Position numbers and translations under genes: made by a program. From Ectocarpus siliculosus (lineage: Eukaryota > Sar > Phaeophyceae > Ectocarpales > Ectocarpaceae), in NCBI GenBank assembly GCA_000310025.1, contig FN649757.1:507005-571004 (forward strand): a stretch of 64,000 bases of DNA, written 5' to 3'. Shown here piece by piece: positions 2,096 to 58,549 of this stretch (positions within the stretch are counted from its first letter, which is position 1; every line of letters starts with the position of its first letter). The notes beneath the pieces are model-generated. The model made no database searches, had not been told where the DNA came from, and saw only the letters and a list, made by a program, of their open reading frames with translations.

Positions 2096-5000
2096 CCGAT
2101 GCATCGGAGCCGGAGTTCAATGCATCTACATCAAGCGGAAGTCCACCCATCCTCAGTATCAGCGAAAACAGCAACTAAGGGGTCTGGCCGGCACGCAGTC
2201 AACGGAGTTGCAGCGCCACTCGTTGTCTGGCGCATTCCTGGCTCGCGACACCCTGCCTTTGAAGAGGTCAGTCGTCTCCATCCGCCGCTGTTCGTTGTTT
2301 AGACTACGCTCGAGATGCAAGTAGCCCTCTTCCGTTTGAGTCATAACACCAACCAGTGTGTGCGCCATCGAATTCAAGCTTCACACCAGTGGAGTCAAGA
2401 AATCGTGGGTGCAGGAAAGAGAAGAACGAAACCGTGTAGAAATAGCTGCTCGTTGGTGTATACCAGTAGTAGCACGCTAGAATCAGCTTCGCCGTCGACC
2501 AGCACCTTCACACACATCAAACTCATGATAGACTTGGATATATGAGCTCAAGGATGTTCTCGAAGATGAAAGGCCTCCATATCTTGCATGTCATATGAGG
2601 CGGTTGCTTTTTGCACGATTTCACCACTGTACCAGGTGCAGGTTGAGTGCGTCTCCGGCGACCGGACTTGTGGGCATGCAGGAGAACGCATTTCTCAGTG
2701 ACTTCTTCGGCTGCGTGGGCTTCCTGCCACTCACCACCCGGAGGTGCCCAGAACGCGTTGATGGTATACACTACAAGGGTAGTAGCTGCACCTCCGCCGA
2801 ACGTATCTCATTGCGTCCCTTTTCAACGCTTGCCGATGTATTTTCGAGGGGGGGCATCGATTCGTCGGGCTACCTCGTTCCCTTATAGCCTAGCGCCTGA
2901 TTCCAGATTCCTGTGCGGTTGACCGTTTTCGCCAGCCACGTTCGCGGAGCGATGGTGAGGATGATGGCTCACTCCGCTGCCCAACATCAGCTGCGCGCTC
3001 GGCACGACACCCCCGATCAAGGCCAGTTCGGCGCCATCTTCTCCGAGGACGGTATCACCACGGGAAATCAGCTATCGACGGGTCCCTCCGCTTGCACATT
3101 TTGGTGTGCAGTTGGTGTGGGGGCTCTTGTAAAGGGACGCCCTGCTGAGTCGGTGAGAAGAAGTGGAGTGCTTGCTTGGCCTGCCGTGTACGAGCAGAAG
3201 GACCGCTGTTGCACGTCGCATTGAGGAAGTCCATCCTTGTTTGGTACAACCGCTGATTGTTGCGTGTAGTTACCGACCGAAATCCTACTTTTCTTATTAC
3301 GCAGAAGCGCTTGTGACGCATACATCTTGATTTTTTTATGGTTTTGCCGTATGTTTGGCCAAAATTTGACTATTGTTTTCGTGTTATTTCACCCTAAATC
3401 ATCCAATACGGCTTGGCGGATGGAAACGCACATGCTGAGACCATTGCCCGTACAGCATAAAGCACATGCTTCCGTCGCGCGTGTTGGCGAGATGACACTG
3501 GGGCACGTCCGTAAAGACGCAAAAAACTTGGCATGTCCACCTCTCTCCCGTAGTCCCTGGTTTGTATATCGTCCCTCTTTGACCTCATACTGAAGAGGTA
3601 CGATCTCACACACGATCCACACACCACCCGCACAAGTCGCTACAAGTTGGGTGAGGGATCGGATGCCACCTCCTGTTGCGGGTTGCATGCCGTCCCCTGG
3701 TGCCAACAATAAATCAATCAACCACCATTGCGCGGCATCATTGGCTCTCGCGAAACGATCGTGGTTCCACCGCAAACCGTCCGATACTCGCCTATCATGA
3801 AACGACAACAGTTGCACCGCGTCACACAACTGCTGGCGCCTTTCCTCCTCTGATAAACTTGTCATGCTGTACGGCGTACCTTTCGGCGTGCTTCCCTACA
3901 AAGACGATTGATTCCCCATGAGTCAAAATCGACGGACGTTTAATGAACGAGTTACAGCGTAGATGACGCGCGGGAGGAATGCCACTAGGACCGCTCGGCG
4001 AAACGCGACGGGTTCCCGCGCCTACACGAAGATACAGCAGACAGGATTACCTTAGAACACGAACCGATCTACCGATACACCGAGACGTTATAGAGTGTGA
4101 TCCCGGTGGCCATCCCGCCCCAGGGGCGGGCGGCTGCCATACCCTAGTTACGAGCTACGACACAATTCGCCACTCGAACCAATGCCCGCGAATTGCAACA
4201 CCTCCCACGCATGTCCCTAAAGGTCACGATCTACTCCCGACTGGCGAGAGGTGCACTGGATGCCTACACTGGTCCTGTGGATGCCGAGGTGGCGAAGTGA
4301 GTTACACGGACAAATTTGCAACACGAGCACACGCTGTACCATGGCCCGTACAGAATTGTACCACATTCATCGCGTGTCATGTATCTGCGAGAATGATGGT
4401 TCGCGCTATGTTTGCTTTTGGCCAAGTTCATCATAACACAAACATGAAACGAGCAATAATATTTGCACGCACAGGTAATCGAGGCTTGCCGTTTGCCACA
4501 CACTATTCCACACAACCTCCCTGGTTTTGTAAGGCTCGGCATTTGCACACCAGTGAGGTTGACAATATTGACCGAAACGTGTTTGGAAATAGTGCAATCG
4601 TACCTTTCGAACGCCACCTTTTGGCATTGATAATGTCGATACCTCTTTACGTATCCAGGGTTCAACCTAAGCCCAGGGCGTGTGGAATGGTGCATCACAT
4701 GCTGTAATCCGGTAGCCTGTCCCACTCGACCCCTCACATCACCAGCCTGTCTCCTGTTCCGTCCTCGCGTCAACATCAATCCAGGGCGTGGGCAATCTTA
4801 GCATACCTCTATGGGTACATGGGAGACACGGTGAGCTCGACTCCTGTGCGAGGCAACACCCTTGGTCGGTGTGCTCGGGTATGCACACGAGGAGCAGCTT
4901 CTCTTGCCTGTCGATAGACCCGATCTCTTGCCAATATTTCTATCGTCAACGACACGAGAAAGTTTGGAAATGGTCTACTCCCATCAATATCATCAGTTGA

Positions 5001-8000
5001 CCCACCCGCTTTATATCTTCGCCATCTGCGAATGTATTTCTTTGTTTCAGGCGAAGTTTGAAGAGTATCTGGAGCTTTCAGACTCCTTTTTGATTGCTTC
5101 CATCGAGCAAGGGTCAACTGACATGCTGCCAGCGGTGAGTGAAACGCCATTGCCTTTTGTAGGAGTGTAGCTGATGCTAGAGCTCCTTTCCCTGCCTGGC
5201 GAAACTGGTTCTATCAAACCGACGACCGTGATCTCCCCGAAGAGGACAGATACATAAACACAGTTCCATTGGCTGTGTATACGCCAACACCACCAAAATA
5301 GCAACAGGGCCAAAACGCCTCTAGGGATAGCCAGGCCAAATGCCGTTGCACGAGTGTTATATCGCGGGACTGGTTCGCCCCTCCTGTGTGCAAGTGTATT
5401 CTGTAGGCGGGGCATGAGGGTAAACAGTGGCTACGCTTCCAGCTGCAGCGGGTTTCCGCCCTGATCAACGGATAGAATGGATGGGGCTCTCACCCACAGC
5501 GGCACCCAGACATACACACGTTTCGGGGTACCGTCGCGACCCAACAGAAATCGATGGTCCCATTCACCCATCGCTTGGGGCATTCCAACGGCCGGTATGG
5601 GTGGGGAGGTGTTGATCGAGTGTGTATGTTTGCTTGGCACGAGTAAGAACACAGGCACTCTTGTCGTGAAACAGTACCGGGGTGGCCGATGGTGTCATCT
5701 GTAGCCGCGCTGCTCGAGGTGGCCAGGGGTTGAGGTCGAAGCATGTGTGTGTGTGAGATGCCCGCGTGTTGGGGGACAAAATGCTTTTGAGGGCCGGAAA
5801 GTTTGTGTGCGTAGACTCAAACCATCACTGACGTTCCAATACGGTTTTGAAGTCGTTTCCGTCCTGCGTCTGATCAGAAGTTTCCCCTTCGCGCCAAGCC
5901 ACCTCCAACGTAAATGATTTGGATTGGTCGGTGAGGTACTCGACAGCCCGTCTCAGAACTTATGTACTGCTCGCATGGGTGGATTGGAGCGTTGTTGGAG
6001 TCGCTGGTTCGCTCAGACGTTTCATCCCGATCGGGACGCTAGCTTGGCGTGGTTGCTTCTTCTTGCTTCCCTCATGCCACGCGATCCAGCCGTCCGACGC
6101 GGCCAACATGTTCTTCTTATCCAGAATGAAGTTGTAATGACTTCCAGTGTAGTTTGACCAATCTGTACCGTTCAGCGTCAAAGATGTGGAGATTGCAGCA
6201 CTGCTTGGCGCGTTTCCGCCTGTGACCATGCTTGCGCTATTGCATGTATTATGGGTCACGCGTATCTGCTGAACTCTCGTATACACGCATGCATCTTCGC
6301 CAGGGATTCGCGGAGATGGTCAATCACAAGCAGACCGTCAAGGTGTACGCGGGAAATCCAGATGCTACGGATATCGACTCTTTGGCCGCCCGACGTCAAG
6401 ATCCTCCGAAGGTGTGTCCTGTGCCGAATAATTGAACTGATTGGCCCAGTTCCCCCAGACGGCGCTCCGTGCTCACAGTCTGGGGCAGCCCCCCAGCACG
6501 TCTCCGCGATGGGTGAGCGCGAGCTCCTTGGAGCGCCCGTACCCGAATGGCGTAGTCGACATCATCGAAACGTGACCCTGGAAAGCAGAGGAAGCTCCCA
6601 AAAGTTACGAAGTGAGATCGACACGCAACCCCGACGAAGGCCTAAGAGAACCGTTCTCGGATCTTCGCGAAGAAATCATTCACACACGTTTGGTTGCAGC
6701 AGCGACATGAGAAACGGTCGCTAGAGTCTCACAACATTCAATACCCTCGACGGCAATTATGTGTAGGCAACTAGGCAGCCAAAAAAAGACATGGGCGCGT
6801 ATTCAGGTCAAGACGTGCGTGAGCACCCCTGCAATAATAATTATGTCTGGAATCGGTCGTCATCCGAGTTTGAGTAATGGACTCTTCGTTCCTCGTGGGA
6901 TTATCTACTCTACAGAACGAGCCACCACAACACGAAAAAATGGGAATATATAACTTCACGCTCGAAAGCATCGAAACCTAAAGAACTTGACGATACGGAC
7001 ATGTGCTCAGGTGAGAACCTCGCACCACCACCTTTTGGTTGATGATGAGTTGCCGTACAGTAGAAAGGTGAAATAGGAGACGGAAGGGGTGGGTCCTTCT
7101 GTTCCGTTTTTGTTTTTTGTGGGGTTCGACTTGCTTGCAAATTTCCGTCGTCATTTTCCTGGACCTTTCTTGGGTTCCCTGTGTGTAAATCTATATTTGT
7201 GGATAAGCATTTGGAGAGTGCTGAAGACGGTGTACTGAGGAAAGGTCAGAATGACGCCGATGTGAAGACCATACCAACGTCAGCAGCAGAAAAAAAAACC
7301 GGCAGGAGCATTAGTTGTTGCGGGTACCCTTCGCGGTGCCTGCGACTCTGTGTGGCACCTCAAGGCGATTCGCGTTCGCGTTTAGCACAATTCTTGCCTC
7401 GGTACCGATACGTTGACGTATGTTACTCAGGCTTGACAGGGCGTCGTGCATGATTACGATCGTGCATGGTTAAGAGACCTACTCCTCCCATCCTGCCACT
7501 TGATATGATCCAGATCACCCCAGCTGCAAGCGAAAGGGACGTGTTTCGGTATGTTGTCCAGTCTCTTGCGGCGTTCGACCAAATGGCGTTCGAGAAAGCT
7601 TGCAAGAACAGGGCGCCCTGCGGACAGTCGAGCGATGATGAGCCTTACTTGGAGAACAGAGGCGATGGTAGCCCGCACGGTAACGCACCCCCAGTGGAAG
7701 AGGTGGCACATGCTATGGTGGCCGGGTTCAAAGATGACCTGGTCGAGTTCGAACATCTGCAAGAAACAGTCGATGGGTGAGCAAGGTTCAAACCTTGCTT
7801 GGCAGATGTGTTTGGAGTGTCATCCGACAACTGATTATCAATTACGATGTAGAATCTTTACGTCTACTCTGCTGATTGACCTTTCCTTCTGTGCTCGATC
7901 GTGTCAGCTGGAGTTCTTGCGAGCTTACTCGTACCCTTCTCGCGATGTTTCCCTTTTCTCCTCGTGGCCGGTTTTCACCTGGATGACGAGCAGACCCAAC

Positions 8001-10602
8001 ATTCGCACGGGCATTGGCGGCCTCCTCATCAACATGTAAGTCAACCTGGACAACGTGCTTCCGACTGCTAGAAACAGCAAGAGTGTTCTGTATTCTTTGC
8101 CTACGATGGCTCGCGCTCCGTTGACCTATGGGCACTACCTCTCTTTGTACTGCCATACGAACAACTCCGGGTAATAGTGGAAAAGGCTTACCAGCATCAT
8201 GATGACTCGCAACACGTTGCATTTTTGGCCATCTCTTTTCGGGTCGGACAGCACCCTGGCATTTAAAAAGGCAGCCAACGGGGAAGCGGGCTTTGCTCTG
8301 AAGAAGCTAGGGCATTGCGTCGAGGTATTCGAGCGGTACCCTGGATTGTGTGGCTGCACGATGCAATGGTGAGCCGATCGCATAAACATCACCAACGCTG
8401 ACATTGATACTCAGGCGGCCATCCGAACTACAGGACAAACTGCGCCGTGCGTATAGAGGACAAGAAGAGTAGTCCTAATGCCACTAGTGGTTGCTCAATA
8501 TGATTTGTGTGGCTTTTTTCTGCGTATGAGCTCGACCTCTGATTTGTTTCGGACTATCCAGAGATAGTTCTGGCGTTCTTCGTACAGGCGTGTCAATGGT
8601 GTGTGTATTGAGACCATATGTGTCGAACGTTGGCGTTTTCATCGATCGTACCTCCCACCATAAGAAGGTGTCGCCTTGCACGGTATCCTGGGGGCCCTAG
8701 CAGCGATTGACGATTCCTGAGCTCGAGGACTGTACAACCGGTTGCGGGAGGTCCGCATTCGTTGTTCACTGCGAAGATTTGTGAGGACATTTTCCTGGTG
8801 CGATCTCGACTGCTGGTTCGGTGGGACTAGCCGTGGATAATTTTGGCGGTCGTCATACAGGCGTGTCAAGGCATCATCATCTTATGTTTCTCCCACCCAT
8901 CGTATGCATACCTCCCACCATGTACAGGAGTCACCTTGCACACCGTATCCAGGGGGCCCTAGCAGCGATTGATGATTCCAGAGCTCGAGGACTGTACAAC
9001 CGGTTGCGGGATGTCTACAATCCGTTTCGCCCCCCTGCCTATCCGCCGGCGCCCCCGTTGGAGGAGTGGCGTGGGATATCTGCATTCTGCGATCGTTTCC
9101 AGTGCAGGTGCGTTGGGAGATTGGGGAGTGATATCCTGCTAGGCACATGCACAACGGTTTCTCTCTGACGTGTCCCCCCCCCAGTCTACACTTGTTCGAG
9201 ATAGGTAGTTTGTCCAATATTTAGAGAACAGAGATAAGACACCCTTGTCTACAAGCGCAGCATCGAACGGTGGCATTGTTAAGACCCTTCGTTCAATGCC
9301 GTTTGTGCTCGACACAAAGATACGGATTTTGGTTAACCTAGTCTTGGTGCGAAGGTCTCGACCACCTTTCGGGGTTCGCGGGGTGACTGATTTTTCAATG
9401 TTGCGAAGTATGAAAAATAGGTGGAGATGTTGACAAAGAGAACTGGATCGGGTGGTCATTGTGGTTCGTTTTTGTCAGGATAATCCATACGAATTTCGAT
9501 CGGCGCTAGGTACTGCGTTAGTGAGTATCAAAGCTCTTTGAGGTATGTGTCGAATCGCTTGTCCTCCAAACGACAAACCTGTCGGGCCACCACATGCCCA
9601 TGCAGTGATTAAGTGTACACCTCCATCTTCTATGTTAGGTCGAACACACAGAAACGCTCGGAGGGGGAGGCAACTTCACGCACATTGCTAATTCACCGGG
9701 CGGATTTCAAACCTTGTACTGTGTGGAATCCGAGATCTCCATGCAGTAACGACTCGCTACTCTTTTCTATCTCTTACTATGGAACGAAGCACGATTCCGC
9801 GGTCACAACTATATCCAAAAGTTAGGATGCAGAGGCCATCCCTCCACTCCGAAGAAAATCGCCACACAAAATTATCGAGGAGTAAAATTTTCGCGGTCGC
9901 GCTTTCGCTCAAAACTGCGGTGTATTATAGTGTTATCTCGAGCGCTGGACGAGGGCCTTGGCGTAGCACTCCGTGTCCAATCCTACCCGTGCTAAAGTAT
10001 ACTGCGGATATATATTCCAAACCTCGTGCGTGCTCTCCCCCACGGTTTCATATTGTCTTTCAAGGGTAACTGAGGGTGTCATCGCGAGTCAAGGCATGAG
10101 CGCTTTCTCCACGCCGCCCCTCTGCGCTAGCAACTGCACCGGCTCACAGACTGCGTGCAAGCAAAGAGATTTGCAGATGTTCGTTGAGGAACATCATGAC
10201 AGCATGGTGTCGGCGGGTGTCATTCCTGAGAGCGCGACCGGCGCGATGGTGGTTGCCCCTTGCAGCAACGGAGACAAACCAATGGCATCTACTAGCTCGG
10301 GGGAACTATACCAATACCCTGCACAACAAACTGGCCCACCTGCCGGACCGAGCTTCTCTACTTCACAAGTCAACTGTGAGCCGGCTAGGGGAGGCAGAAG
10401 TGATTCTGACGTGTCTAGTGGTGCGGTCGAGGGGTGTGATGGTGGTGTCGTTTCTGGCTGGGTAGCCCATGTTCCCGATATGTCCTTGAGATCGCCGGAG
10501 TTGAGAGAGGTGGATGGGGCCCCAGAGGAGACCGGAGGTGATACTGTTGCTGCGGCAGACTGGCTAGATGTTACTCATGCTATGTTGGGTGCAATTGATT
10601 AA
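2096..10602 (+). CDS. Gene A: Zn2Cys6-type transcription factor paralogue lacking exon 1
   Basis: Exons inferred from the four paralogues: 2096-2266, 2636-2743, 2936-3152, 4223-4296, 4785-4830, 5051-5134, 6304-6411, 6497-6571 (tentative), 7514-7776, 7994-8035, 8252-8368, 8928-9107, 10065-10602. All phases fit and the frame stays open to the TAA. The first exon seen starts in phase 2 with the last two zinc-cluster cysteines (RC then IGAGVQC) and a basic linker; the exon with Cys1-4 is not found. Then come the conserved PATGLVGMQENAFLSDFF block, a TFWCAV segment, TPR-like helical segments (AILGYLYGYMGDT, KFEEYLELSDSFL, VFERYPGLC), LEEWRGISAFCD, and an acidic Ser/Gly-rich tail ending near DWLDVTHAML. 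Family knowledge: binuclear zinc-cluster proteins are nuclear DNA-binding regulators. Inference: the helical middle is the regulatory domain and the acidic tail an activation region. Without exon 1 it is incomplete or starts outside the window. Introns 4 and 7 carry large insertions. Confidence 0.75.
3326..4185. other. Insertion in intron 4 of gene A
   Basis: Intron 4 of gene A is about 1070 bp, against about 190 bp in B. The intron sequence aligns with B up to about 3325 and again just before exon 5, so roughly 860 bp are extra. I see no clear terminal repeats. The extra DNA holds an antisense open frame, listed separately. Confidence 0.4.
3389..3865 (-). CDS. Hypothetical protein nested antisense in intron 4 of gene A (158 aa)
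   Basis: An open frame of 158 codons with ordinary protein composition: an acidic N-terminus (MTSLSEEERRQQ), a segment rich in aromatic and charged residues (LRWNHDRFARANDAAQWWLIDLL), and later cysteines. No family is recognised. It lies wholly within the extra DNA of intron 4 of gene A and on the opposite strand, so it came with that insertion. B, C and D have no equivalent. It may be a piece of an unknown mobile element. Confidence 0.35.
   Translation of the reverse strand: MTSLSEEERRQQLCDAVQLLSFHDRRVSDGLRWNHDRFARANDAAQWWLIDLLLAPGDGMQPATGGGIRSLTQLVATCAGGVWIVCEIVPLQYEVKEGRYTNQGLRERGGHAKFFASLRTCPSVISPTRATEACALCCTGNGLSMCVSIRQAVLDDLG
5400..5800. repeat. Insert in intron 7 of gene A, shared with gene C
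   Basis: Intron 7 of A is about 1170 bp and that of C about 1230 bp, while that of B is about 380 bp. The extra DNA aligns between A (5400-5800) and C (about 35480-35900, inverted, as expected from gene orientation). It contains a CA-rich stretch and, antisense to both genes, a shared reading frame around DGTPKRVYVWVPLWVR. It was present before A and C separated. Confidence 0.5.
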
Positions 10603-15061: not shown

Positions 15062-15102
15062 CGCTGTACCAACACCTGGCCTAGCTAGGCTCCACGATAT
15101 CG

Positions 15103-15400
15103 TGTTAGTGCACTGCCGCCCTCAGCGGTCTGTGGTGTTGAGACTGGGGACTATGTTATCCCAGGAACAGCTGATAAAAAAGGACCATGTATTGTATATA
15201 TTCGTCACGCAAGCCCCTCAGGCAAGCTGGTATTCGACACGCAAGCCCCTCAGGCAAGTGCCGGGAGCACACCGCCGTGTGCTCCCGGGGGGGCCGCACT
15301 TGGACCACAACCGCACACATACCCTCACCCCCATACTTCCAATACGCGTATCCCCCACAGAGGATGCACAGATCGGACTCATATCCAAGTACCACAAACA
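15103..15400 (-). repeat. 5' LTR of the Gag-only element
   Basis: 298 bp, right copy, nearly identical to the left LTR and directly upstream of the Gag frame on the - strand. It is followed by the GAGAC target repeat at 15401-15405. Confidence 0.88.
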
Positions 15401-16307: not shown

Positions 16308-16379
<72 letters not shown>

Positions 16380-20105: not shown

Positions 20106-20159
20106 CAGAGAGAGGGAGCAGCAGAGGGCTCCAGACTACAGCAGTACCTGTGGTTGATA

Positions 20160-37100: not shown

Positions 37101-40100
37101 ACCTTTTGTGACACGTTGGGGACGTGTTAATGTGCGGGCGATGTGTTGACTGGCGAACTCTTCTGTACCAGTAGTACAGGAGGTGGCCCGATATAGCGGC
37201 ATGTGGGGGCAAGCCAACATATGCCACTGTTCAGGGCAGTGCTGCTGTTACCACCACTGAGGGGGGTCAACGGCGGCAATTCGCAATATTGCCGCATAGC
37301 GGAGCAAAGGTTTTGATGTGCACACCAATGACGGGAGAGGAGTAAGGTCTACTCGCTAAACACGTTGCAGCGTGTGTCAGAGATGTATCTGTACACAGCA
37401 GTTGTGTATCCACATGAAACACGCTCCGATCTTCGCACATCACGTTAATATAATACCAGCTCGGAGTGACCCGACCTTCCCTTGCCACAGCCTACTTCAG
37501 TGTGTAGGGAGACTCGAAGAAAAATCCCATAGAGAACCGCACACCAGTAAACTCACCGCAAGATGCAAAGACGTTGACAGCAGTGCACTGTAAACGCCGA
37601 ACACGACCCCCCACGACACATGAACACCTACCGCCAAGCTGCTTCCAACCATGATTGAGTAATCAGCTCTGATTATCCCCCAGTTGTGGGAGGTCTGGAA
37701 GTTTACACCGTTTTACACGCCGGCATCATATATACGTGCGGAGCCAACGGTGGTGTGCGGTGTGCGTGTGCGCTTTAGTGGTGAGTTATAGGGGATCCGA
37801 CGGTTGGAGTTGACGCTTCTGGGGTGGTAGATAACCCAAAGAACCGCTATAACGGGCTTTGTCCTCAACGGCAAAATGCCGCCATACCGAGTTGAGATTG
37901 TGACAAACGAGATATTAATGCCGCCATATCGGCAATTCCGCTTTTGAGGTTGCCGCTATATCGGGCCTCCTACTGTAGTTCGAAATTGCGTCGGTTGGTA
38001 GCTGCAATTCGACGTGGAACAACGGTTCTTTTCCTCATATCGGGTGAGCGAGAAACACGCGATCTTCTCCTCACCGATTCAACAGGGCTGCCCTTCACAA
38101 GAGCCCCCAGACCAACGGCACACCAAAATGTGCAAGCGGAGGGTCCCGTCGAAAGCTGATTTCCAGGGGTGATGCCATCCTCGGTGAAGATGGAGCCGAA
38201 GTGTCCTTGCGCGGGGGAGTCGTGCGGAGCGCCCGGCTGATGATGGGGAGTGGAGCTGGTCATCATCCTCACCATCGCTCCGCGGATGTGGCTGGCAGCA
38301 ACAGTCAATAGCACAAGAATCTTGAATTGGTCGATCCACTCAAGGGTCCCTATTGTCCGAGCGCCCATCGCTCGGACGAATCCATGCCTTCCATAGCCGG
38401 TCGCCCCGGTGGTCTAGTTGGTATCCTCGAAACCTTCTAGAGGTCAGGTCAGGGGTTCGAACCCCGGCGCAAGCGAGCTTTTCTTGCAAAGTGAGTTTTT
38501 CTCTCGCTTCCGCTCCTGGCCTAGTGGATAGCGTTAGTTCGTGTATACACAGAGGGAAGAGAGTGCTGAGCTCTTCTCGCATTAAAAATCGAAGGCAAAG
38601 TACCGCAGGAGGGGAGGGTAGAGAGGGGCTCTTCTGTGTGACCACGGGTTGGAGTAAACGGCACTAGTGCTGTGAGCGCCGATTTGAAGTGAAGACAAAA
38701 AAAAAAATATATATATATATTGGTCTGATGACTCACGCTACATAACGTGATCATCTTGGCGGAGGTGCGCCGTGTTGAGTACACCGCCACAGTTTAACTG
38801 CACCTTCGGGTGGTGAGCGGCATAAATCCTATGCAGCCGAAGAAGTCACTGAGGCATGCGTTCTCCTGCATGCCCACAAGTCCGGTCGCCGGAGATGCAC
38901 TCCACCTGAACCTGGTACAGTAAACGCGCGTTTCGACGTGATGAGATCGTTCAAACAGCTCTCTCCCGATACGACACGCAAGACTTGGAGGTTATCTTCA
39001 AATTCTAGAGCGCCCTTCGTCGTCTTTTAGCTCATACCTGCGGCTCCGGTACACTTCCCACGTCTTTCACGCAGTGCTTGGAGGTGCTGCTCGAGGGTGA
39101 AGCTCGCTCTAGTGTGGCATACACCAATGGGTAGCATTTTTCAGCTAGGCGTCGTTCTCCTCTTTCCTGTACCAACCATTTCGGCACAATACTAATGTGA
39201 AGCTTCGCATGAAAACCGGTCGAACGGGAGAGGGAATGGGATCCTGTGACTCAAGCCGAAGATGGCCTTCGAAAAAAATCGATTGGAATCGAAACAACCT
39301 ACAGGAGCGCAGACGACGGCTGACCTCTTGAAAGGCAGCATGCCGCAGGCCAGGAGTGCGCCTGATGAAGAGTGGCGCAGCAACTCCGTTGACTGCATGC
39401 CAGCAGGACCACGTGGACGGCGCTGGTGCTGGTGCCCAGGCTGACCCTGGTGCGGCTTCCGCTTGCTGTACGTGCATTGGACCCCAGCTCCTCGGCATCG
39501 ACTGCATGAAGTAAGGGGCCAACGTATCGAGAACGACCTTCCAGCACCTACCGTTTGGACCTTTCGTCTTCAATGTTGGATTGCGGCATTTTGGCCGTGC
39601 TTTGAGAAGGTGTGTGCAGAGATGGACTGCGTGATACGGATGGAGGCAAGCCCCACCCGCTGCTCAGCCCGACTGCAAATGGAATTAGTCATGCCCGAAG
39701 ATTGAGCTGCCCAACGGTAGTGATGTATCTCTTCGTGATTGCTATGGAGGCGATCTTTCGGTTGTATTTAATACCGGGGTGCTTACTACTTGGTCTAAAG
39801 CAACGGCTGAAGGAACTGGATACAACTGGTAGAGCGCCAGTATATACAGTGTCTCGAGGAAACTCTAAGGAGGCCAGGTGGGGCGGCGGTGGCGGACATT
39901 TGCCCCGACGGAAATAACGCATCATTTCGAAACTAAAACATTCTGGTTCGAACCTGGGATGTTGTAGATTTTGCTTGAACCGTTCAAAACCTATAGCCCT
40001 AGCCCTATCCCTAACCCCAAACAAACCCGACCCAAACCCTTCATATTGGTAAGAGCTAGGTCACCTGCACGTGTAAGCGTAGCCGCGGCGCAAGAAGGGG

Positions 40101-40775
40101 TTTAGGTCGCAAAACGCGAGCCTCTGTGGCGGCGCAAAAATGGCGAAGACCTAGTTTGCTGTACAGGTACAGTTAGCTTAAGCCACGGCGTGGGACAGAT
40201 AGGTGAGACACTAAGTTGCTGTGCGTGCTAGCCTTATACTGCGGAGCGAGAGGGGTAAGTGCTAGGCTCCACGAGCTGCACCTACCCCGGGACGAATGTT
40301 CCGAGAAATCGTGTTCCGACATGGAGACCACCACGTTCAGCCGAGTCGTGAGGTCACGGTTGCGTCAAAGTCGATTAGATCGTCTTTCTTGAATCTGTTG
40401 CTCTCCTTGATACTCGTTGATACAGTAGAACGAGCACAAACGGTGGGGCGGCGCCACCTCTAGCGAGAGCATCATTGCTATAGAATCCTTCAATAGGGGA
40501 TTACTTGTGCCATTCTTGCGATTGGTATCTAGCAAACCCGAGATACGTGTCGACACTTCCACCAAACATGCAAATCCCAATCAGACGAAAAGGAGCATCA
40601 TCACTTCCAACAGTAACATCATGGCGAAGGTTCATGTCGACATATCACATATTCCGTACCTGCAAGGTATCAGGCCATCGCACTTCCTTTTCTTTCGCCC
40701 ACATTCACAGCAGCTCTTTCGCATCCCAAGGTTGTTTGTAACAATGCTCCCCTCTTTCGCGTAAATGGAATTCAT
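31116..40775 (-). CDS. Gene C: complete Zn2Cys6-type transcription factor (about 720 aa)
   Basis: Exons in coding order: 40775-40660, 39501-39325, 38911-38804, 38291-38075, 37102-37029, 36536-36491, 36267-36184, 34952-34845, 34764-34690 (tentative; its acceptor AG is shifted), 33677-33415, 33199-33158, 32929-32813, 32459-32280, 31671-31116. Lengths sum to 721 codons with stop. Residues 22-48 form C-X2-C-X6-C-X5-C-X2-C-X6-C with RKKRK between Cys2 and Cys3, the basic helix that contacts DNA in GAL4 relatives. Residues about 98-134 carry PATGLVGMQENACLSDFF; about 180-206 TFWCAVGLGALVKGSP; 207-274 and 437-536 TPR-like helices (AILGYLYGFMGDT, VFERYPGVC); the tail (536-720) is acidic, Ser/Gly/Pro-rich and ends near DWLEVTHAMLDATD. 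Closest to A, including introns. Intron 1 holds repeat R3, intron 3 a SINE, intron 4 a TIR element. Most likely the functional member. Confidence 0.85.
35480..35900. repeat. Insert in intron 7 of gene C, shared with gene A
   Basis: Inverted match to 5400-5800. It has two CA microsatellites (35531-35553 and 35672-35690). The + strand frame around RDGTPKRVYVWVPLWVR is kept in both copies. Confidence 0.5.
37177..37975. mobile_element. TIR element in intron 4 of gene C (Tc1/mariner-like, non-autonomous)
   Basis: 799 bp with terminal inverted repeats (left CAGGAGGTGGCCCGATATAG; right end reads CAGTAGGAGGCCCGATATAG on the other strand) and TA on both outer sides (37175-37176 and 37976-37977). Subterminal motifs (GCCGCTATA, GCGGCAAT) repeat inside. 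It encodes no transposase. A TA duplication with ends beginning CAGT fits the Tc1/mariner/pogo superfamily. Confidence 0.75.
38402..38710 (+). mobile_element. tRNA-headed SINE, family 2, copy 2 (intron 3 of gene C)
   Basis: Box A-like TGGTCTAGTTGG and box B-like GGGGTTCGAACCCC. The acceptor ends (GCCCCGG and GGCGCAA) do not pair, which argues against a functional tRNA. The body shares CCGCAGGAGG and CTGTGTGACC with copy 1 and ends in A-rich plus (AT)n sequence. It lies antisense in intron 3 of gene C. Confidence 0.65.
39779..40400. repeat. Repeat R3, copy 1, in intron 1 of gene C
   Basis: Patchy match in the same orientation to 41098-41570 (GGTGCTTAC.ACTTGGTC, CCCTATCCCTAACCCCAA, GAGCTGCACCTACC). 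The two copies sit on either side of exon 1 of gene C. Family unknown. Confidence 0.45.
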
Positions 40776-42195: not shown

Positions 42196-42272
42196 ATGCT
42201 TGGGGAAATGCGCAGGAGCTGTTGTGAATGCGGGCGAAAGAAAAAGAAGTGCGATGGCCTGGCTCCTTGCAG
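42196..42272 (+). CDS. Orphan zinc-cluster first exon on + strand
   Basis: Encodes MLGEMRRSC then CECGRKKKKCDG and APCR, with Cys spacing C-X2-C-X6-C-X5-C identical to exon 1 of B and C, and ends TTGCAG|GTGTGT in the same phase 2. An in-frame GTG at 42187 extends it slightly. No Cys5-Cys6 exon follows on the + strand in the window. It lies head-to-head with gene C, about 1.4 kb from its exon 1. Either a leftover of another copy or the first exon of an unrecognised gene. Confidence 0.55.
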
Positions 42273-42530
42273 GTGTGTGTACCAATTAATTGTGGTGAGC
42301 CTACCTTTTGGTGGTCGCATGATCAACATTGCGGTATGGACTGCTACTTACAGTAGCGAGATCGAACGCGACAGAGACATAGAAGAGAGAAAGAGAGGGT
42401 GTGTGTGAGAGAGAGATAGAGGCTTGTCGAACATAGACGTGACCGAAGCTGTGGACAGAGAGATGGTGACGTTATTGTCCCTCGATAAGGTCCTGGATCT
42501 TCAGGGTTGATGGTTGATGTGACATTTTTA

Positions 42531-43737: not shown

Positions 43738-43740
<3 letters not shown>

Positions 43741-43903
43741 TATCTTTCCATGCACGTACGGTTATCTTGTACTGTATGTAAACAGTCTACACACACAGCA
43801 GTCGTCGAAAAGCACGCATGACTCTGGAGATTTCCATCCACAGCAGCAGTCACGATGTTGTCCATATATATGTAGCTGACTACAAGCACCACCATATGCA
43901 TAC

Positions 43904-43977
43904 CTGCAAGGAGTTGCACCGTAGCACTTCCTTTTTAGCAAGCTGCACCTTTCGCAGCTCTTTCGTAGATCGTACAT
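43904..43977 (-). CDS. Orphan or alternative zinc-cluster first exon upstream of gene C
   Basis: ATG at 43977 (reading leftwards) encodes MYDLRKSCERCSLLKRKC then YGATPCR, with C-X2-C-X6-C-X5-C spacing and a CTTGCAG|GTATGC donor in phase 2. It is on the same strand as gene C, about 3.1 kb upstream of its exon 1, and would splice in frame to exon 2 of C (39325-39501). The residues between Cys2 and Cys3 differ (SLLKRK instead of GRKKRK), so such a protein could prefer other DNA sites. No transcript evidence is available; it may also be a remnant of a lost paralogue. Confidence 0.5.
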
Positions 43978-44474: not shown

Positions 44475-44492
44475 TGTCGGCCGACCCGGCGA

Positions 44493-50154: not shown

Positions 50155-53100
50155 TCAGGGCGATTCTAGTATGGCGTGTGCTACGTCCATCCAGTCTTCC
50201 GCAGCAATGAACTCGTCCTGTGCACCTGCATCTGCCGGATGGGCATGACAAGGCGTTGAAACCAACACGTGTGCATCTTGAGCCGCCGTGTGTGCGACAA
50301 CTTCCTCGTGCTGTTGGCGTGCATCGTTGCGCGTGCGGTCATCACAACCGCCGACTGGCTCAGCTCCAGACGTACCCGCGCCGCCTTCCGAGGACACCAT
50401 AGACGAGAAGTCCAAGTTCCGTCCAGAGCAAAGTCTTTCCGTTGTCCTGACCAATGAAATGGTGCGTGTGGGGACGTACGTGTCACCAGGTGAAAGGTAA
50501 AACGTACAGAGTTGCCCCTTCTTGAAGGATGCTACTGCAATTGCCATCGGTGGGTAAGTCCTGATGCAACACAGGCGAGCAGTTGACTATGCGTAGAACG
50601 CTTTCACGGCTATCTCAAAAATACTTCATAATGCACTCATGACAGGTGGGAAGAAAGCTTCGGGCACCCATGCGGCTTAAGAAACCAATCCACTGATGAA
50701 CTTTCCTCAACAGGAGTAGGGATGAAGCACGCACACCACAGTCCCAAGCTGAACAAACCTGCACAGGCCGTTGTCACAAATCCCAGATAAGCCGTCCCAC
50801 TCCTCAAACGGCGGAATGGCCAACGAGCCTGCGGGCCGCGTGCTATTGCAAGCGTTCCGGAGCTTGCCGTACAGCCCATAAGCACTGGGGTGATCCATGC
50901 TTGCTACCATCGATAGCGATAGGTGCGCTATGTGTTCTCTTCACCACAACGAAAAATCGAACAAGCGATCATATCAAGCATCGGGCAAACGAGAGAGGTC
51001 AGAAAGCCCATAGAACCCCTGGGGGCGACCAAGACAGAAAAAACTTGTTCGTCCGTCAGCGAAATGACCCTCAGCCGAGAACACAAGGCGAACGAGTGAA
51101 GAGAAAAGGTTCACATCGGTTTCGACATTTCTCGCTGGTCTCTATCCTGCCCAACGCTGCCCAGAAAAACACACGCATACCTACCATACTGAACGTGGTG
51201 CCATAGAAGCTGCTGGAAGGGTACCCAGTTGCGGCGCCATTTTGAGCAATACCAGCTAACGATTTGGGGAACATGTTTCTTGCTTCTTCTGCAGAGTAGC
51301 CCAACAGCAACATGTACAATCAAGTACTTGGGAATACCAGTATGTGTAGGATTCTTGGCATCTATTCCAATGTTCATTTTCTGAAACTTGTGTTTTGGGG
51401 TTCCGTAGCCCAGGCTCGTAATGGGAGCGTGTTCCGCATGTCACTCACCCCATGAAGAAGCGGGTAAGTCCAGGGTATCGGTCGCAGATCTCGACGCAGC
51501 GTCGTAGCTTCTCCAGCGCTGCATTGGAATCCCCCTGTACGGCCTTAGCAAATACTAGGGCCCTGTGTGATGCGACACGGTTCATTTCAGACAAAGAAGG
51601 AGCTCCAATTTTCACTTGGACATGCTTCAATAGCGTGAGCTGGTTATATCCTCAGTTTTCCTCTCTATTCTTTTCGTACACGCAAGCCGAAATACCAGTT
51701 TGAACCCGAACACACCATAGCGCCCAATGGAGTTGCAGGAGTCCGTTGTTGCAGAACGATATTGTCATTGTCGACATGCTGACAGGCAAACGAATACCGT
51801 CTCACCCGTTGATGATCAGGCTGCCAATACCCGCGCGAACGTTGGGTCTTCCATCCCCAGTTGAATTCCGTCATTCAATACCCGTCGTGACGGCAAGCAG
51901 CGAATGAACAAGCCGTTGCGAGAGGCGAGGGCAGATAGTAAGAGGAGGTTACACGCTGTTGCGGGTGGGTCAGATAGAGGCCGACGCCAGCGGTGTCGCA
52001 CAACGACAAATTACGTCCTAGCTGCGAGCTACAGATGGTATGTTAATTAGCTAAACGTCGTCATGTCGAGCTAGCCTAGACGCAATCTTCACCTCTCCGC
52101 CGCGTCTTCACAGGCTCCAAAGTCAGGCATAATTCCCATCATTGTTGATTGCATCACGCTGGCGCAATCAGAGGCAGCGGAGCGGGAACGAGCGCTGCCG
52201 AAACCACCGCCGACGCCTCGTATGTTCGACGCATCGTCGTCGCTGGGTTCACCGTCATCCCCGCCTGCCCACGCTACCCCTGCCCCTTGCTTGCGCAGGG
52301 CTCGGTTCATGGTTACTACGGAGGATTGCAGGACAAACTGAGATACTTGCGCTTCGGTTGCAATTTGGGATATCTGTATTGGGCGAGTAGCAGAAAAGAC
52401 ACAAACGCACACGGAATGCACCGGGGGGGCGCGGGGGGGGGTACTCATTGTCGTGCATGTCGCAGTCGTTACACCATTTACCTCGCATCCCTACAAAGCC
52501 GGGACGGAGCACATTGGGTTCTCACCGGACCAGGCTCTCACATCACCAAGCGAGAAGCACCGTGAGGTATTCGGCGAGTCGCATGAAGGGTGCACTGCAT
52601 CCTGCTCAGGGTGTTCGGCATCTCGTGCTTACTCCCTTGCGTACGAATGACAGCTGCGTATGACACAATTAATATTCTGGTGCTTTCACTTCCAGAGACA
52701 GTTGTAAACACTGTATAACTGCCTCGAGGATGCTTGACCATTTTAACACAACGTGGTGCGATCATCCCCCGTTGCGCGGAGTGAGGGTTCTCGACCCCGC
52801 ACAACATGATCTACTCGACCACCATTATGGTTACCGCCAAAAAAGAAAAAGAGACGCAAAAAGAAAAGCGTTGACCTGGTCGCCGAGCGCACGAAGTGAT
52901 CGGCTTGTTTTACAACTTCGTTGCCAAGCGAAGAAAACACATCCCCGACGGCAAACACCGGAAGAGGGGGGTGGGGTGGGGGTGGGGGGGTGTACTCATA
53001 GTCGTGCATGCCGTAGTCGTTAGACCATTGACCTCGCATCCCTACAAAGCCGGGACGGAGCACATTGGGTTCTCACCGGACCAGGCTCTCACATCACCAA

Positions 53101-56100
53101 GCGCGAAGCGCCGTGAGGTATTTGGCGAGTCGCATGAAGGGTGAGCTGCATCCTGCTAAGGGTGTTCGGCATCTTGTGCTTACTTCCTTGCGTGCGGATG
53201 ACAGCTACGTATGACGTAATTTATTTTCTGGTGCTTTCACTTCCAGAGACAGTTGTAAACACTGTGTAACTGCCTCGAGGATGCTTGACCATTTTAACAC
53301 AACATGGTGCGATCATCCCCCGTTGCGCGGAGTGAGGGTTCTCCACCCCGCACAACATGATCTACTCGACCACCATTATGGTTACCGCCAAAAAAAAAAA
53401 CCGGTGGGGGTGGGGGGGGGATTGTTGGTAGGAGGCGAAGTTGGTGACAACTCTTGCCTTTATACGTCAAGCACAGAAACGACCACCACCAGACGATAAC
53501 AGCCAACGGCGAGAAAATCGGTCCCAAAAGGGCGACGAGATTTCTCAGGAGTTGGCGTCCCTGATTGAGCCCTATCTATGTTGCGGTCGAATCAGCTGGA
53601 AACGATAACTCAATAGAAAGGCGCAACCTTGAACTCACTGTTGGAAATGAAATTTCTTGAGCGAGGAAGGACTCGATCTCTTCGGAGTTGGCTCGCCCAG
53701 TGAATAGCTTGGTCGCTTCTCCGTGCTCGACGATCTCGGCATAACCCTGACGAGAACAAGAAAAATGACGGCCAACAACAGCTGTTTCAGCGTCGCGTGC
53801 ACTATTCGAGTCCTTCACGATATGCAGCCGGCTGCAAGTGTTGGGAAGATCGCCTGGTCTGACGACCGACCAATCGTTAAGATTCTTTGCGAAGGCCACC
53901 CCCAAAAAAACAATATCGATACGGAAAACGTTGGGAATGCACGAGGGTTATCGGTATCGGTTGTTTTCGGTTAGTAATATTCTTGCTCCCATCTTTGAGA
54001 CTGCCACCGATCTTCGTTTTCGTCTGATCTTGTCGCCAACGGGCATTCACGGGAATCGCCAAAGTTAGTCTTCCTGCCATTTGTTTTGGCTGTTCTGTTG
54101 TCGTTTTCATCACTACCGTTGTTTTTTTGCATTTATTAGCGTTCCATCGACTTCAACAGCGCCCGCCCCTGTCCTCCTGCTAACAAACAGCCCGGGAATA
54201 GTGTAGAACAAAAGGCCAACACCCATGGGTTCTTTTCACAACGGGGCGATATTTTCTACGGTTTTTCGCCCTTCTGTCGTGCGAGTTCTGTGTTCGCGAG
54301 AACGACTTTGTGCGCTCCTTTGCGTTCTCGAAATATTCTACGGAAAACATCTCCGTTACGTATCCCCGGGTGGTCAGGATAGCCTCGAGAACTATCTAGC
54401 GGCGAAGGTGTGAGTTCAAATACCGACGAGGTGTGATTATTTTCGCATTTTCATACCTTCTACTGGAACCACTTCTTCGTAAATGTGCATGAGGGATGGA
54501 CGGCTGAAGTATCCTCGCGAAAAACGTTCAAGTCACACGCATACATCACGGGATATCTCTAATTGTTCGAAACTGTTCGTTGGCGAGGCAAGGCCATACA
54601 GAGGGTACAAACTACGGCAAGAATGTTATATATATTGATGGCCAACTCCCCGACACGCCTTCGCCACAAAATGATTCTTACCACTGGGAGCGAATCTCGT
54701 GACCCTCTCTCTGCGGAGTCGCGGATAAAGCTGTCCGAGAGTGCCAGATAGTCGCAAAACTTCTCCTGGGAGGTGTAGGCAGAGGAACGATTGACACATT
54801 AGTTCGGCTGGTAACGACTGATTCCCTCGCCATCCATTGCTGTCGCATGACTCACATGCCCCCCCGTCAGAGAAGTCAATGATGTACGATTTTCACCGTT
54901 CGGCCAAACGATTCCAACGGCTGGTCTGAAGAAGCAGTGCTCACCACATCTCCCGAGAAGGCGTAGAGGTACCCCAGTATCGTCCACGCCCTTAAAACAA
55001 AAAAAACAGGGGCGGGAAAAGATAGCAATGGTGACGTATTGTGAGCGACGTACAGTAGGTGTCTCGATATAGTGCCGGTTGAATAGTGCCAAAGTCCGGT
55101 AAATTTTCTTGACACAGACACGGGCCTGAATAGTGCCAAACCGGCACTATTGAGGGCTGTTCGCTATAGTGGCGGTTCAGGCACTATCGAACCCCTCAAT
55201 AGTGCCGGTTCACACCCCACACACAGCCTTTTTTCGCCTCAAGCCTTCCATGCCAACAGGATTCGGAGACGGTTTCCCTTCGAGCTACAAGTACGCTCGG
55301 TTTCTCTCGGTACGCGTTACGTCTTCAAATGTCGCCGTTTACTGATCGACGCAGGTTCCACCAATAGGCTGGGATTTCAGTAGTGAGGCGAGCGAAAAGG
55401 AAGATGGTGGTAGTGACAAAGGATATGGAAAGTATAGCGAAGGATAGCAGTGATGATGCAGGAGGAAAATATGGCGTTGAGGGGAACAACAAGAGTTTCG
55501 AGCGAGATGATCTTCCTCACAACAAACGCCGCAGGGGCGGAGCATCTAGAGATGAAAGCCCGAAAAATAGTGGAATAATAGTGAAGAGTGTAGTAGTGGT
55601 GGTAAATAAAATTCTTCTAAGGAAGGATGAAAACACTCCGAACCGAATGCGTGTTCAAGTAGTAAGCCTTGGCAGTCGCGTAGTTCTCCTCTCTCTGTTG
55701 CTACCATTTCTTCTGTCTTTTATCCAGAGAATAGCTCGGCCTCCTCCATGACACCGTCTCACGGCCTTGAGAAACAAATATTTTCTGTTTTTGATCGCAC
55801 TGAGACTGGCGTCTTTCGGTTGGCCAGTCTTTTTTCTTGCTGCTGAAGGCTTGGTCTTGTCTCCAGCTTTTTATCGAAGGAACAGGGGAGTTCGTTATCT
55901 TCTTCGCCCCCTTTTTAGGTTGCATCTGCTTTTGTGTGCTCATGTAAGGAGCACTACATCCATCCATGATTTACCTCCAAATGTACATCGGGTGCGTTCA
56001 TGAGCGTCTTTCTTTGGCTGTCGAGGGGTGCCTTTGAGGTTGCCTGAATAGTGCTACGGCCTTCTTGCAATACAACACATAATAATTTGATAGCGAGGTA

Positions 56101-58549
56101 AACTTTTATCGGGCAGCACGGTCTACGGCTAAAAGGCAGCAGCAACGTTTCACCAGCGAGTGCTTGCGCTGAGGTGGGAAGAGAACAACTGCTGTGCAAC
56201 AAATCGATTTGGTCAATCACGTTAATATTAATGTGACCAATGCCGTGTTTTCGACAGTCCCAGAATCTCACGAAGCTAAATAATGAAGCCCGCCCACGTC
56301 GCCCACCTCACGATTGATCCAAATACCGTTCCGTTGGTACTCTGTCATCCCCGCAAAGCGCAAGGGCTGCACTCTGAAGTCGAAAAGTCCTGAATAGTGC
56401 CAAGCCGGCACTATAGAGGGATTTTCAGGCCCTGAATAGTGCCGATTGAATAGTGTCAGTGCCCGGTATAGTGCCGGTCAAATCGCCTGGACACATACCG
56501 GCATATATCGGGACACCTACTGTAGTCCGTACTCGACCTAACGAGGCTGGCGAGAGGGCAACGCGCTACTTCCTGCAACTTGGTCACAACCCAGGCGCGG
56601 ACGGTCGTGCACCCTTGGGCCAGTACGAACCTATCCAAATGATGCACCTGCTCGCGGGATATCAGCTCCGGATGCCATTCAACTCACTTTGCAACCTCCA
56701 TGTTGGTCGGGCCTGTGAAACTTGCTAATGCCGCCTTCGCTCGTCGGAAGTAGTGCGCTACCTGTGTTCATGCGTTGAGGGCAAGCGTTGAGTCGAAAAC
56801 ATCGAAAACATAATATCCGTGCATGACGTGTCCCGGACGTTCATCCGTGGCAAAGATAAGTACCAGGTATAGACAAACCTGCAAGTGTTTACAATTCTAT
56901 CTGATACTGACAACGTTTTTCAAGACCCCTCCACGGAATTTTCCGGGATTGTGCATGCGCAGGGTAATGCAAGACGAGGAAACACATAGACCTAGCGCGC
57001 TGTATGGCACGTAGCTTTGAAACAAACAATAAAAAAGACAACAACCACCAGGGAGAGGGCAGTGTGGGTGCTTGGGGAACGAAATAAACTTTCGATGTGA
57101 CCCTTACAGTGACATATACCACGAACAAAGCCCGCGTGGATGCATCGTAGGCTGGTGTCCAGCGAAGCACGACAGGGTTATTTTTTCGGGGGAAGGAGCG
57201 CGAACTACCATCAGGGCAATTCAGCTTCGCGTGGCCAAAAAAATAACTAGACAGTTGTGCCAAATACTGTTGTCCGCGACGAGCATTTCGTTTCGAGTTT
57301 TGTCTCCGCGAACGATTGGTTGTCGGAGTGTTCGAACCCTCGACTCTTCCCTCCTTCGTGGCGAAGTGGGGCCAATTGACGCAGTGTTGGACATGGGCAT
57401 GGCCGCACTATTGTAGCTGTGGCGAAACCAACACTGTGATGCAGCTGTTCGGATGACCGTTGGGCCTTCAGAATGAGCAAGAAAAAAGGCTTCATTCCCA
57501 GTTCTTCTTACACTGCAGAATGCGCTGGAATCCGAACTGCGGGTCGTGCCTACACAATCACCCCCAGCGATTCAGATTCATTTGACATAATTGTCAGCAC
57601 GCCGTCACTTACCGACTCGATAGGATGGCCCTCCGCGAGTGCCCCGATAGCAACGGCACACCAAAACGTGCAAGTTGAAGGGTCTGCGGGAAGGTCATCT
57701 CGTTTCCAGGTATTGCCGACATTGTCTTCCGATACGATCGTGACAAACTTGTTTTCGACGTCGCAGTCTCTCGTGGCGATTGACTGCTGCCGGGTAGGCG
57801 ACATCATGAGTGTCACCATCACTTCGCGCACATCCCTGCCGTAAAGCACGATGACCGTGTTGCCATGACGGAGGCGACACGAACCGGGGGACGCGGCGAG
57901 AAATGAGTGCATGAACCACCGCAGCACATTCACATTCCACCGCAGGGCGGTAGACAGGGGGTTGCACCCCATGTTATCGTACGGGGGAGACATCCTCACC
58001 GATACTGAGCCTTGTGCAATCGCTCGGAAATCCCCGACTTTCTGTATGGGGCGGGTCAGTGGCATCGACAACGATGGAGGGCGGTGCCCTCTGGGGCGAT
58101 TACAAGAGAAGTGATGGGCAAACGGATATCACGTCCTGCGGAACATTGAGCACACCTGTTCTCTTGCTCAACGTTCACTCCTCAGCGCGTGTACTCCGCT
58201 ACATCCCGCGGCTGGTCCCGAAACAACTGCCCCAGGAGTTTTCTCCATTGGCAGGCCATCCGATCGGTCGTTGTGTCGTTTGTACAATATTCATAGACTA
58301 CAACCATTGTCCCAGGCGCATAACCGGATCAAACCCTAAATGCCGTTCGCATCCAAACACCACAACTGATTGCATGAAGTTCGGCACACGGCAGAGAAGT
58401 GGACGTTCCTCAATATATGGATGAAGGAGCCGGTCGAATACCTTCGGGTTGCGAGCGGAAGAAAACCAACCGAGTCGAAGAAGTTGCTCAGAAACACGTT
58501 CTCCTGCATGCCCACCAAGCCGGTCGCCGGAGAAGCGCTGAACCTGTAC
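50155..58549 (-). CDS. Gene D: divergent paralogue lacking the zinc-cluster exons
   Basis: Exons in coding order: 58549-58442, 57835-57613, 56761-56688, 54990-54945, 54765-54682, 53746-53639, (exon 9 uncertain, near 53550-53480), 52373-52093, 51847-51806, 51562-51449, 50899-50759, 50446-50155. Lengths differ from A-C only by multiples of three (223 vs 217, 281 vs 263, 141 vs 180), and phases match, so the frame appears kept. It encodes PATGLVGMQENVFLSNFF, TFWCAVAIGALAEGHP, ILGYLYAFSGD, EKFCDYLALSDSF, EICDRYPGL, FEEWDGLSGICD and a tail ending DWMDVAHAILESP. No Cys1-Cys6 exons are found upstream; a LINE fragment begins about 140 bp past exon 3. Either a 5'-truncated copy or a protein made without a DNA-binding domain. 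Introns carry a TIR element and SINEs. Confidence 0.7.
52430..52967 (-). mobile_element. SINE-like repeat, family 1, copy 1 (in gene D)
   Basis: On the - strand the unit starts near GGTGTTTGCC, has a T-rich middle, then GGCGGTAACCATAATGGTGGTCGAGTAG and GGGGTCGAGAACCC (box A-like and box B-like), and ends GTCAATGGT.AACGACTACGGCATGCACGACTATGAGTAC followed by a C run. The last 60-80 bp match the 3' end of the LINE at 20355. About 535 bp. Confidence 0.65.
52975..53402 (-). mobile_element. SINE-like repeat, family 1, copy 2 (5'-truncated, in gene D)
   Basis: Tandem to copy 1 in the same orientation. It begins at the T run before GGCGGTAACC, so it lacks the first 120 bp or so, and ends in the C-rich run. 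The two copies are about 95 percent alike by eye. Confidence 0.65.
55053..56522. mobile_element. TIR element in intron 5 of gene D (TATAGTGCCGG repeats)
   Basis: 1470 bp. Ends CAGTAGGTGTCTCGATATAG and the mirrored right end, with TA on both sides (55051-55052 and 56523-56524). Subterminal GAATAGTGCC/GGCACTAT motifs repeat several times at each end. Interior frames (for example 55383-55751, + strand, Lys/Asp-rich start) are not recognisable as a transposase. Confidence 0.8.

Follow-up and report, generated by a model that had tools for sequence, protein, structure and literature searches.

Zinc-cluster regulators inside and outside the fungi

The binuclear zinc cluster, or Zn2Cys6 domain, is most familiar from fungi. 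It has the motif CX2CX6CX5-16CX2CX6-8C, and its pairing with a middle homology domain defines the CeGAL regulators of fungi, as set out in the available text of PMC10141177. Outside the fungi, 24 canonical Zn2Cys6 proteins were counted in Ectocarpus and 71 in Naegleria, numbers that are called hard to account for in the accessible part of that account (Scazzocchio 2014; PMC5611559), and an origin of the domain outside fungi is treated as an open question in the corresponding part of a later one (Shelest 2017; PMC5415576). At issue is whether the domain originated in fungi and spread from there by gene transfer, or is an old eukaryotic domain that was lost in most lineages. The subject here is a stretch of 64,000 nucleotides from the brown alga Ectocarpus siliculosus (GenBank assembly GCA_000310025.1, contig FN649757.1, positions 507,005 to 571,004 of the forward strand), hereafter the window, which carries four predicted zinc-cluster genes termed A, B, C and D. 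The contig is called C32 below, so that the window is C32:507005-571004.

These genes probably encode brown-algal sequence-specific transcription regulators that have been multiplied by tandem duplication. Judged by sequence, they belong to a true Zn2Cys6 family in an unusual genomic arrangement, and assignment of the family to CeGAL is not supported by the fungal_trans test described below.

Gene structure and paralogy

An original prediction, made from the letters of the window alone, had proposed four paralogues in the order A(+), B(+), C(-), D(-), sharing one structure of roughly 14 exons and filling most of the window. Gene models were obtained with a purpose-written spliced-profile aligner, with a list of open reading frames (ORFs) used for some exon ends, and the four genes were recovered at the places and in the orientations proposed (Table 1). 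Against a control profile scored only on eight paralogues in C32:1-200000 (c18, c32, c54, c74, c86, c115, c158 and c175), genes A, B, C and D scored 1504, 1678, 1812 and 1133, respectively, compared with 73-122 for 20 dinucleotide shuffles and 82-175 for the four antisense strands. The eight control rows were aligned on the column grid of an earlier profile that held the window genes, and it is this grid, not the scores, that is window-influenced. The highest antisense score, 175, came from the gene C stretch, which includes an orphan zinc half on the plus strand. Self-comparison of the ORFs within the window also returned collinear blocks common to A, B and C, and partly to D.

The common structure thus holds, with a count of 13 exons instead of 14. 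A plan of 13 exons and 12 introns with phases 2,2,2,0,2,0,0,0,2,2,2,2 is found in four genes, B, C, c74 and c158; the recovered exons of A and of the remaining C32:1-200000 genes follow the identical phase pattern. Intron positions match to within one or two profile columns, the exception being the uncertain last junction of D. Exons 3-12 of D fit the profile; its exon 2 was found neither by spliced-profile alignment nor among the 39 genome matches of an exon-2 similarity search at E≤1. Introns inside the window measure 179-1697 bp, and intron 1 of A is predicted at about 6.6 kb because exon 1 sits ahead of the window. The four gene spans total about 34 kb, and so occupy approximately half of the window, not most of it. 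Among the eight C32:1-200000 genes, in a segment of which about 25.7 kb is N, six (c18, c32, c54, c86, c115 and c175) have a missed or poorly modelled first or last exon, and for c115 and c175 a likely last exon was located separately; C, c74 and c158 show no break across the 13 modelled exons. At the level of sequence comparison, A, B, C and D are confirmed as real many-exon genes of one paralogous family.

The genome itself had been predicted to be non-fungal, and the EsV-1-7 domain, a brown-algal hallmark, agrees. All 150 of the candidates scored for this domain (PF19114), out of 880, exceeded the cut-off, and 90 such proteins are given for Ectocarpus species 7 in the available text of PMC12629598. 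The genome is therefore taken as brown algal.

The split zinc cluster

Exon 1 closes with C-x2-C-x6-C-x5-C and exon 2 opens with xRC-x6-C, such that intron 1 cuts the zinc cluster between cysteines 4 and 5 and joining of the two exons yields a canonical Zn2Cys6 domain. When gene C is read from the start MNSIYAK, six cysteines lie at residues 22-48 with the spacing C-x2-C-x6-C-x5-C-x2-C-x6-C, which fits the general motif after the two exons are joined. The original prediction had placed a Zn_clus domain over these residues, and Pfam Zn_clus (PF00172) indeed matched residues 21-55 at 28.4 bits, with c158 reaching 30.8 bits against a cut-off of 21. A separate Pfam scan matched Zn_clus in four of six members; A (exons 2-13) and D (exons 3-12) gave no match because the first zinc half is absent from these models. 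An initial reading that A and D are devoid of a first zinc half was dropped, as halves lie at C32:502.4 kb for A and, as a candidate, at C32:577.1 kb for D. B and C are the only genes with both halves inside the window. A profile of the six members searched against the PDB retrieved 19 sequences at E≤10, all of them zinc-cluster DNA-binding proteins aligned at or around the zinc cluster, including PUT3, Pho7, CYP1/HAP1, LEU3, LAC9, GAL4, CBF3B and PPR1 (best E 0.00026).

Conservation of the cluster extends across the genome, for which the assembly searched comprises 189.5 Mb in 492 contigs and the match counts by similarity search are lower bounds. First zinc halves match at 49 places at E≤1, 31 of them on C32, and a few of the others are other Zn_clus genes. 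The four cysteines are kept in all 18 of the first halves that could be read; some of these were read by a regular expression that demands the cysteines, and all 18 are also in the similarity list. The lysines of the zinc loop are nearly invariant in the same 18. Both cysteines of the second half are retained in 25 of 25 readable genes, the second half being unreadable in five more of 30 genes (D, L017, L025, L026 and L027). An exon-wise Pfam scan of the genome returned 12 Zn_clus matches, none in the window. It misses the family because intron 1 splits the zinc cluster, and is a misleading census of it.

The middle region and the C-terminal tail

The middle region, exons 3-12, is conserved and common to all four window genes. 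Its description in the original prediction as a family-specific region agrees with the Pfam scans, in which no match of the scanned proteins over this region exceeded the threshold. The TPR-like helices proposed for it (TPR, tetratricopeptide repeat) are weakly supported. Exon 12 alone models as a two-helix hairpin (H2-14/H17-33) with a mean predicted local distance difference test score (pLDDT) of 87, and TPR_8 stays under its cut-off in the five of six members where it appears, with gene C the member of best E at 15 bits against 25.7. The exon 4 model is poor (pLDDT 54). The region is probably helical as well as specific to the family.

Selection was estimated as the ratio of nonsynonymous to synonymous substitution rates (dN/dS) by plain Nei-Gojobori counting, with no likelihood test. 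Over exons 3-12, all ten pairs fall within 0.27-0.44: A-C 0.39, A-B 0.41, B-C 0.36, C-D 0.31 and A-D 0.32 in the window, and c158-c175 0.42, c32-c54 0.44, c18-c54 0.38, c74-c86 0.34 and C-c158 0.27 otherwise, where the pairs that involve D, and C-c158, are near saturation. On these values the middle region is under purifying selection. For exon 1, with 23 codons, three of the ten pairs were computable (B-C 0.46, c158-c175 0.05 and c74-c86 0.04).

The linker after the zinc cluster is variable between paralogues, and the last exon is fast-evolving, with dN/dS of 0.58-0.95 in five of six computable pairs and 0.27 in c74/c86, values to be read with the poor models of the c18, c32 and c86 last exons. 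In an ungapped comparison from the anchoring tryptophan, the final 20 residues of ten genes have a mean pairwise identity of 61%, versus 22% over the preceding 40. Counterparts of this acidic-hydrophobic tail end A and B, and that of D lies near 50161-50217. The tail is a putative activation motif.

The array and its copies

Where the original prediction had seen a cluster of four, the cluster is upheld and its size had been undercounted: the four window genes are members of a tandem array with about thirty copies on C32. An exon-4 query from c158 gave 49 genome matches at E≤0.01, distributed as 31 on C32 (18,968-678,158, about 660 kb), six each on C34 and C11, two each on C16 and C30, and one each on C3 and C116. 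With exon 4 of A, 43 matches were obtained at E≤0.001, and an exon-12 query gave 48, of which 27 are on C32. Among the viral contigs, 44 stretches fit a pattern; none was a relative by tblastn.

A tree of 30 copies, built on exons 3-5 and with strong support in 9 of 27 inner branches, splits into two clades. Its nearest pairs are separated by no more than about 45 kb, as in C and C32:587 kb (99%), C32:445 and 460 kb (98%) and C34:140 and 162 kb (95%), followed by A and C32:478 kb (92%) and C32:159 and 176 kb (86%). At the DNA level, a copy of C, termed C' (C32:580.1-590.3 kb), is 93-97% identical and covers window positions 34.5-40.9 kb, or exons 1-8, among the matches listed, and a copy of D, termed D' (C32:634.7-642.8 kb), is 91-97% identical. 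Given these identities and the partial extent of C', duplication is therefore recent and some copies are partial.

Two pairs of first zinc halves stand head to head, 1-2 kb apart, at C32:577127 (-) and 578930 (+) and at C32:649682 (-) and 650733 (+); such pairs could share two-way promoters. Eight divergent Zn_clus loci, L001-L008, gave family-profile scores of 75-148, near the shuffle range of 73-122 that was set with another profile and stretch length, and their kinship to the family is therefore not supported. The whole zinc cluster lies in one frame in seven of these eight, L008 is situated at C32:149917-153003, and L005 has SSATGLGGLQESSFL after its zinc cluster, a sequence that resembles the exon 3 of family members.

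Proposed function and alternatives

Zn2Cys6 proteins bind DNA, mostly as dimers at CGG half-sites. The pair of lysines between cysteines 2 and 3 resembles the CGG-contacting loop of GAL4. By this analogy, the N-terminal zinc cluster, built from exons 1 and 2, would contact CGG-type half-sites, probably as a dimer. The helical middle region may provide for dimerisation or for control by a ligand or partner, and the DWLDVTHAML tail would draw in the transcription machinery. Differences between paralogues would lie more in the linker and last exon than in the zinc loop. As the most speculative step, the array might serve inducible environmental responses, a role suggested because two close-numbered Ectocarpus Zn_clus genes rise under copper and oxidative stress: Esi0071_0075 with a log2 value of 3.1 at 4 h and Esi0071_0081 with 1.4, both placed in the copper-and-oxidative group in Table 1 of PMC4108028.

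Several observations weigh against tandemly multiplied regulators of transcription and the roles proposed for them. Only the domain name links the stress-induced genes to the family. The fungal_trans domain, a search for which the original prediction had proposed, is unmatched in six of six members at E≤1 and at E≤10, with most matches above about E 0.1 being discarded by the HMMER filters; the six-member profile finds no sequence match to a solved structure in the PDB for the middle region; and a fold search of the PDB with the exon 12 hairpin gave 34 matches at E≤10, of which none reached E≤0.001. The first zinc half of A is reached only across the predicted 6.6-kb intron, and with exon 2 not found, the zinc cluster of D is incomplete as modelled. 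The nearest relatives of B, D and C32:405 are over 100 kb away, and that of C32:357 is a C11 copy. C' seems to be without exons 9-13, with no exon-12 match nearby; exon 4 is frameshifted in B (near 24141) and, as modelled, in c32; and in-frame stops occur in copies at C30:543 kb, C32:202 kb, C16:2.37 Mb and C32:233 kb.

An unlikely alternative is that the array serves genome defence. In vertebrate KRAB zinc-finger (KRAB-ZNF) arrays, DNA-binding proteins encoded in tandem multiply in pursuit of transposons or proviruses and silence them, and defence arrays of this type are recognised as tandem paralogue clusters with diversifying selection at the DNA contacts. The family is likewise tandem, its duplication is ongoing, as the identities of C with C' and D with D' indicate, and its genes are embedded in repeats. 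However, the first zinc half is without a sign of diversifying selection in the three computable pairs, the zinc-loop lysines scarcely vary across the 18 halves, and the conserved tail appears more activator-like than repressor-like.

Just as improbable is the view that few working genes stand among many relics, in an array that arose as a by-product when genes duplicated locally and that has no function as such. The frameshifts in B and c32, the truncated C', the orphan zinc halves, the relic exon 12 in gene A and the in-frame stops of several copies would all be expected of decaying duplicates, yet the dN/dS values over exons 3-12 are constrained in every pair, the cysteines are kept in every zinc half read, and C, c74 and c158 are unbroken across their 13 modelled exons.

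A structural role in chromatin, as for Cep3/CBF3B at the budding-yeast centromere, is very unlikely: CBF3B is the top single-sequence PDB match of gene C (E 0.011), but over the zinc cluster only, PUT3 and Pho7 outrank it with the family profile, and dozens of diverging copies are ill-suited to a core kinetochore part. Fungal contamination or a very recent transfer from a fungus, to which the usual term fungal-specific for the domain (PMC5415576, available text) might point, is hardly credible given the many long introns, the lack of a fungal_trans match, the presence of copies on seven contigs, some several megabases long, and the plentiful EsV-1-7 domains of the same assembly; an ancient transfer from a fungus may have occurred.

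Orphan zinc halves and other elements of the window

Two first zinc halves in the window are orphans with open frames and splice donors (Table 1), and an in-phase GT follows every first half whose end was inspected (11, plus A and D). For the plus-strand orphan, no exon-2 or exon-4 match was found on that strand before C32:602 kb. The minus-strand orphan is on the strand of gene C, about 3.1 kb upstream of its exon 1, and reads CYG instead of the usual CDG. Cassettes of alternative exons are familiar from cell-surface genes; we know of no such logic for a DNA-binding domain. A combinatorial system of this sort, in which first exons, whether adjacent or far off, would be spliced to different bodies to give several DNA-recognition loops per regulator, is conceivable but distinctly doubtful, and the loss of the CDG aspartate from the half upstream of C speaks against it.

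Table 1. Predicted features of the array in and next to the window
Feature	Position	Strand	Exons or sequence	Basis or remark
Gene A exon 1, first zinc half	C32:502.4 kb, before window	+	MRRSCCECARHKKKCDGLTPC	
Gene A, exons 2-13	2096..10602	+	2096-2266, 2636-2743, 2936-3152, 4223-4296, 4785-4830, 5051-5134, 6304-6411, 7514-7776, 7994-8035, 8252-8368, 8928-9107, 10065-10602	aligner; last exon end from ORF list
Broken second exon-12 copy, within intron 11 of gene A	8583..8753	+		in-frame stop
Gene B, 13 exons	22644..30162	+	22644-22759, 23128-23304, 23725-23832, 24017-24232 (frameshift near 24141), 24423-24496, 24972-25017, 25251-25334, 25715-25822, 27355-27617, 27833-27874, 28115-28228, 28533-28712, 29622-30162	
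Gene C, 13 exons	31116..40775	-	40775-40660, 39501-39325, 38911-38804, 38291-38075, 37102-37029, 36536-36491, 36267-36184, 34952-34845, 33677-33415, 33199-33158, 32929-32813, 32459-32280, 31671-31116	no break seen
Conserved acidic-hydrophobic C-terminal tail, gene C	31143..31199	-	DDTIAAADWLEVTHAMLDA	proposed activation motif
Zn2Cys6 cluster, gene C	39474..40712	-	CCECGRKKRKCDGLIPC (exon 1, from 40712) + SRCRGAGVQC (exon 2, to about 39474)	intron 1 = 40659-39502
Orphan first zinc half-exon	42202..42276	+	MRRSCCECGRKKKKCDGLAPC	phase-2 GT donor; similarity search
Orphan D-type first zinc half-exon	43897..43977	-	MYDLRKSCERCSLLKRKCYGATPC	phase-2 GT donor; similarity search
Gene D, exons 3-13	50155..58549	-	58549-58442, 57835-57613, 56761-56688, 54990-54945, 54765-54682, 53746-53639, 52373-52093, 51847-51806, 51562-51449, 50938-about 50755, last exon ending 50155	exon 12/13 junction uncertain
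Gene D exon 1 candidate	C32:577.1 kb, outside window	-		

Putative mobile and repeated sequences lie in and between the genes. Between A and B, an ORF at 14057-15121 (-) matches gag of the copia type (Retrotran_gag_2, E 1.5e-6), and at 44385-45503 (+) a 372-residue open frame, broken by a gap of 100 N, resembles the C-terminus of a tyrosine recombinase (SGRIGGATRLAAKG...) and matches no Pfam family at 0.01. Within intron 3 of gene C lies a 0.31-kb repeat (38396-38708) with more than 30 copies genome-wide among the matches listed, at 94-97% identity, which is perhaps a young element. A dispersed repeat of about 1.47 kb (55050-56525) is found in the gene D intron between exons 5 and 6, with about 20 copies elsewhere among the matches listed at 83-92% identity (40 of 3129 candidates scored). 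Another, of about 0.97 kb (52430-53400), has many genome copies, mostly at 84-91%, some of which overlap on C85 at offsets of about 545 bases, and a partial inverted copy at 59684-60107.

Comparison with known systems

In the literature searched, of incomplete coverage and in part limited to portions of the sources, no report was found of the tandem array, the split zinc exon, or this architecture and middle region, and the available parts of PMC2937223, PMC4222949, PMC12629598 and PMC11378527 do not mention a zinc-cluster array in brown algae. As the split zinc exon escapes an exon-wise Pfam scan, published Zn2Cys6 counts may be too low. The size of the family, its many introns, its tandem arrangement and a middle region peculiar to it speak for a long residence in the brown-algal lineage. 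The array is a concrete gene set to be placed on a tree, and bears on why a seaweed has so many such regulators.

The nearest described counterparts are the Zn_clus proteins of E. siliculosus itself, likewise brown algal and with a Zn2Cys6 domain, for which the available portions of PMC5611559 and PMC4108028 give no architecture, exon structure or array. Among them, Esi0071_0075 and Esi0071_0081 are close on one supercontig, as judged from their names, and the family is likened to them by domain only. With the fungal CeGAL regulators, as described in the accessible part of PMC10141177, the family shares an N-terminal Zn2Cys6 domain, a long middle region and an acidic C-terminus. Unlike them, it has a middle region that is not fungal_trans, 13 exons with long introns, a tandem arrangement and a non-fungal host. 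CBF3B is matched by the family profile over the zinc cluster only; a distant kinship of the middle region to the CeGAL middle homology domain may exist. The KRAB-ZNF arrays are likewise a tandem expansion of DNA-binding regulators with ongoing duplication, although built on another zinc domain, and the first zinc half of the family gives no sign of diversifying selection in the three pairs computed. Naegleria gruberi, with its 71 proteins, represents a similarly large Zn2Cys6 expansion outside the fungi, again with architectures of its own (PMC5611559, available text).

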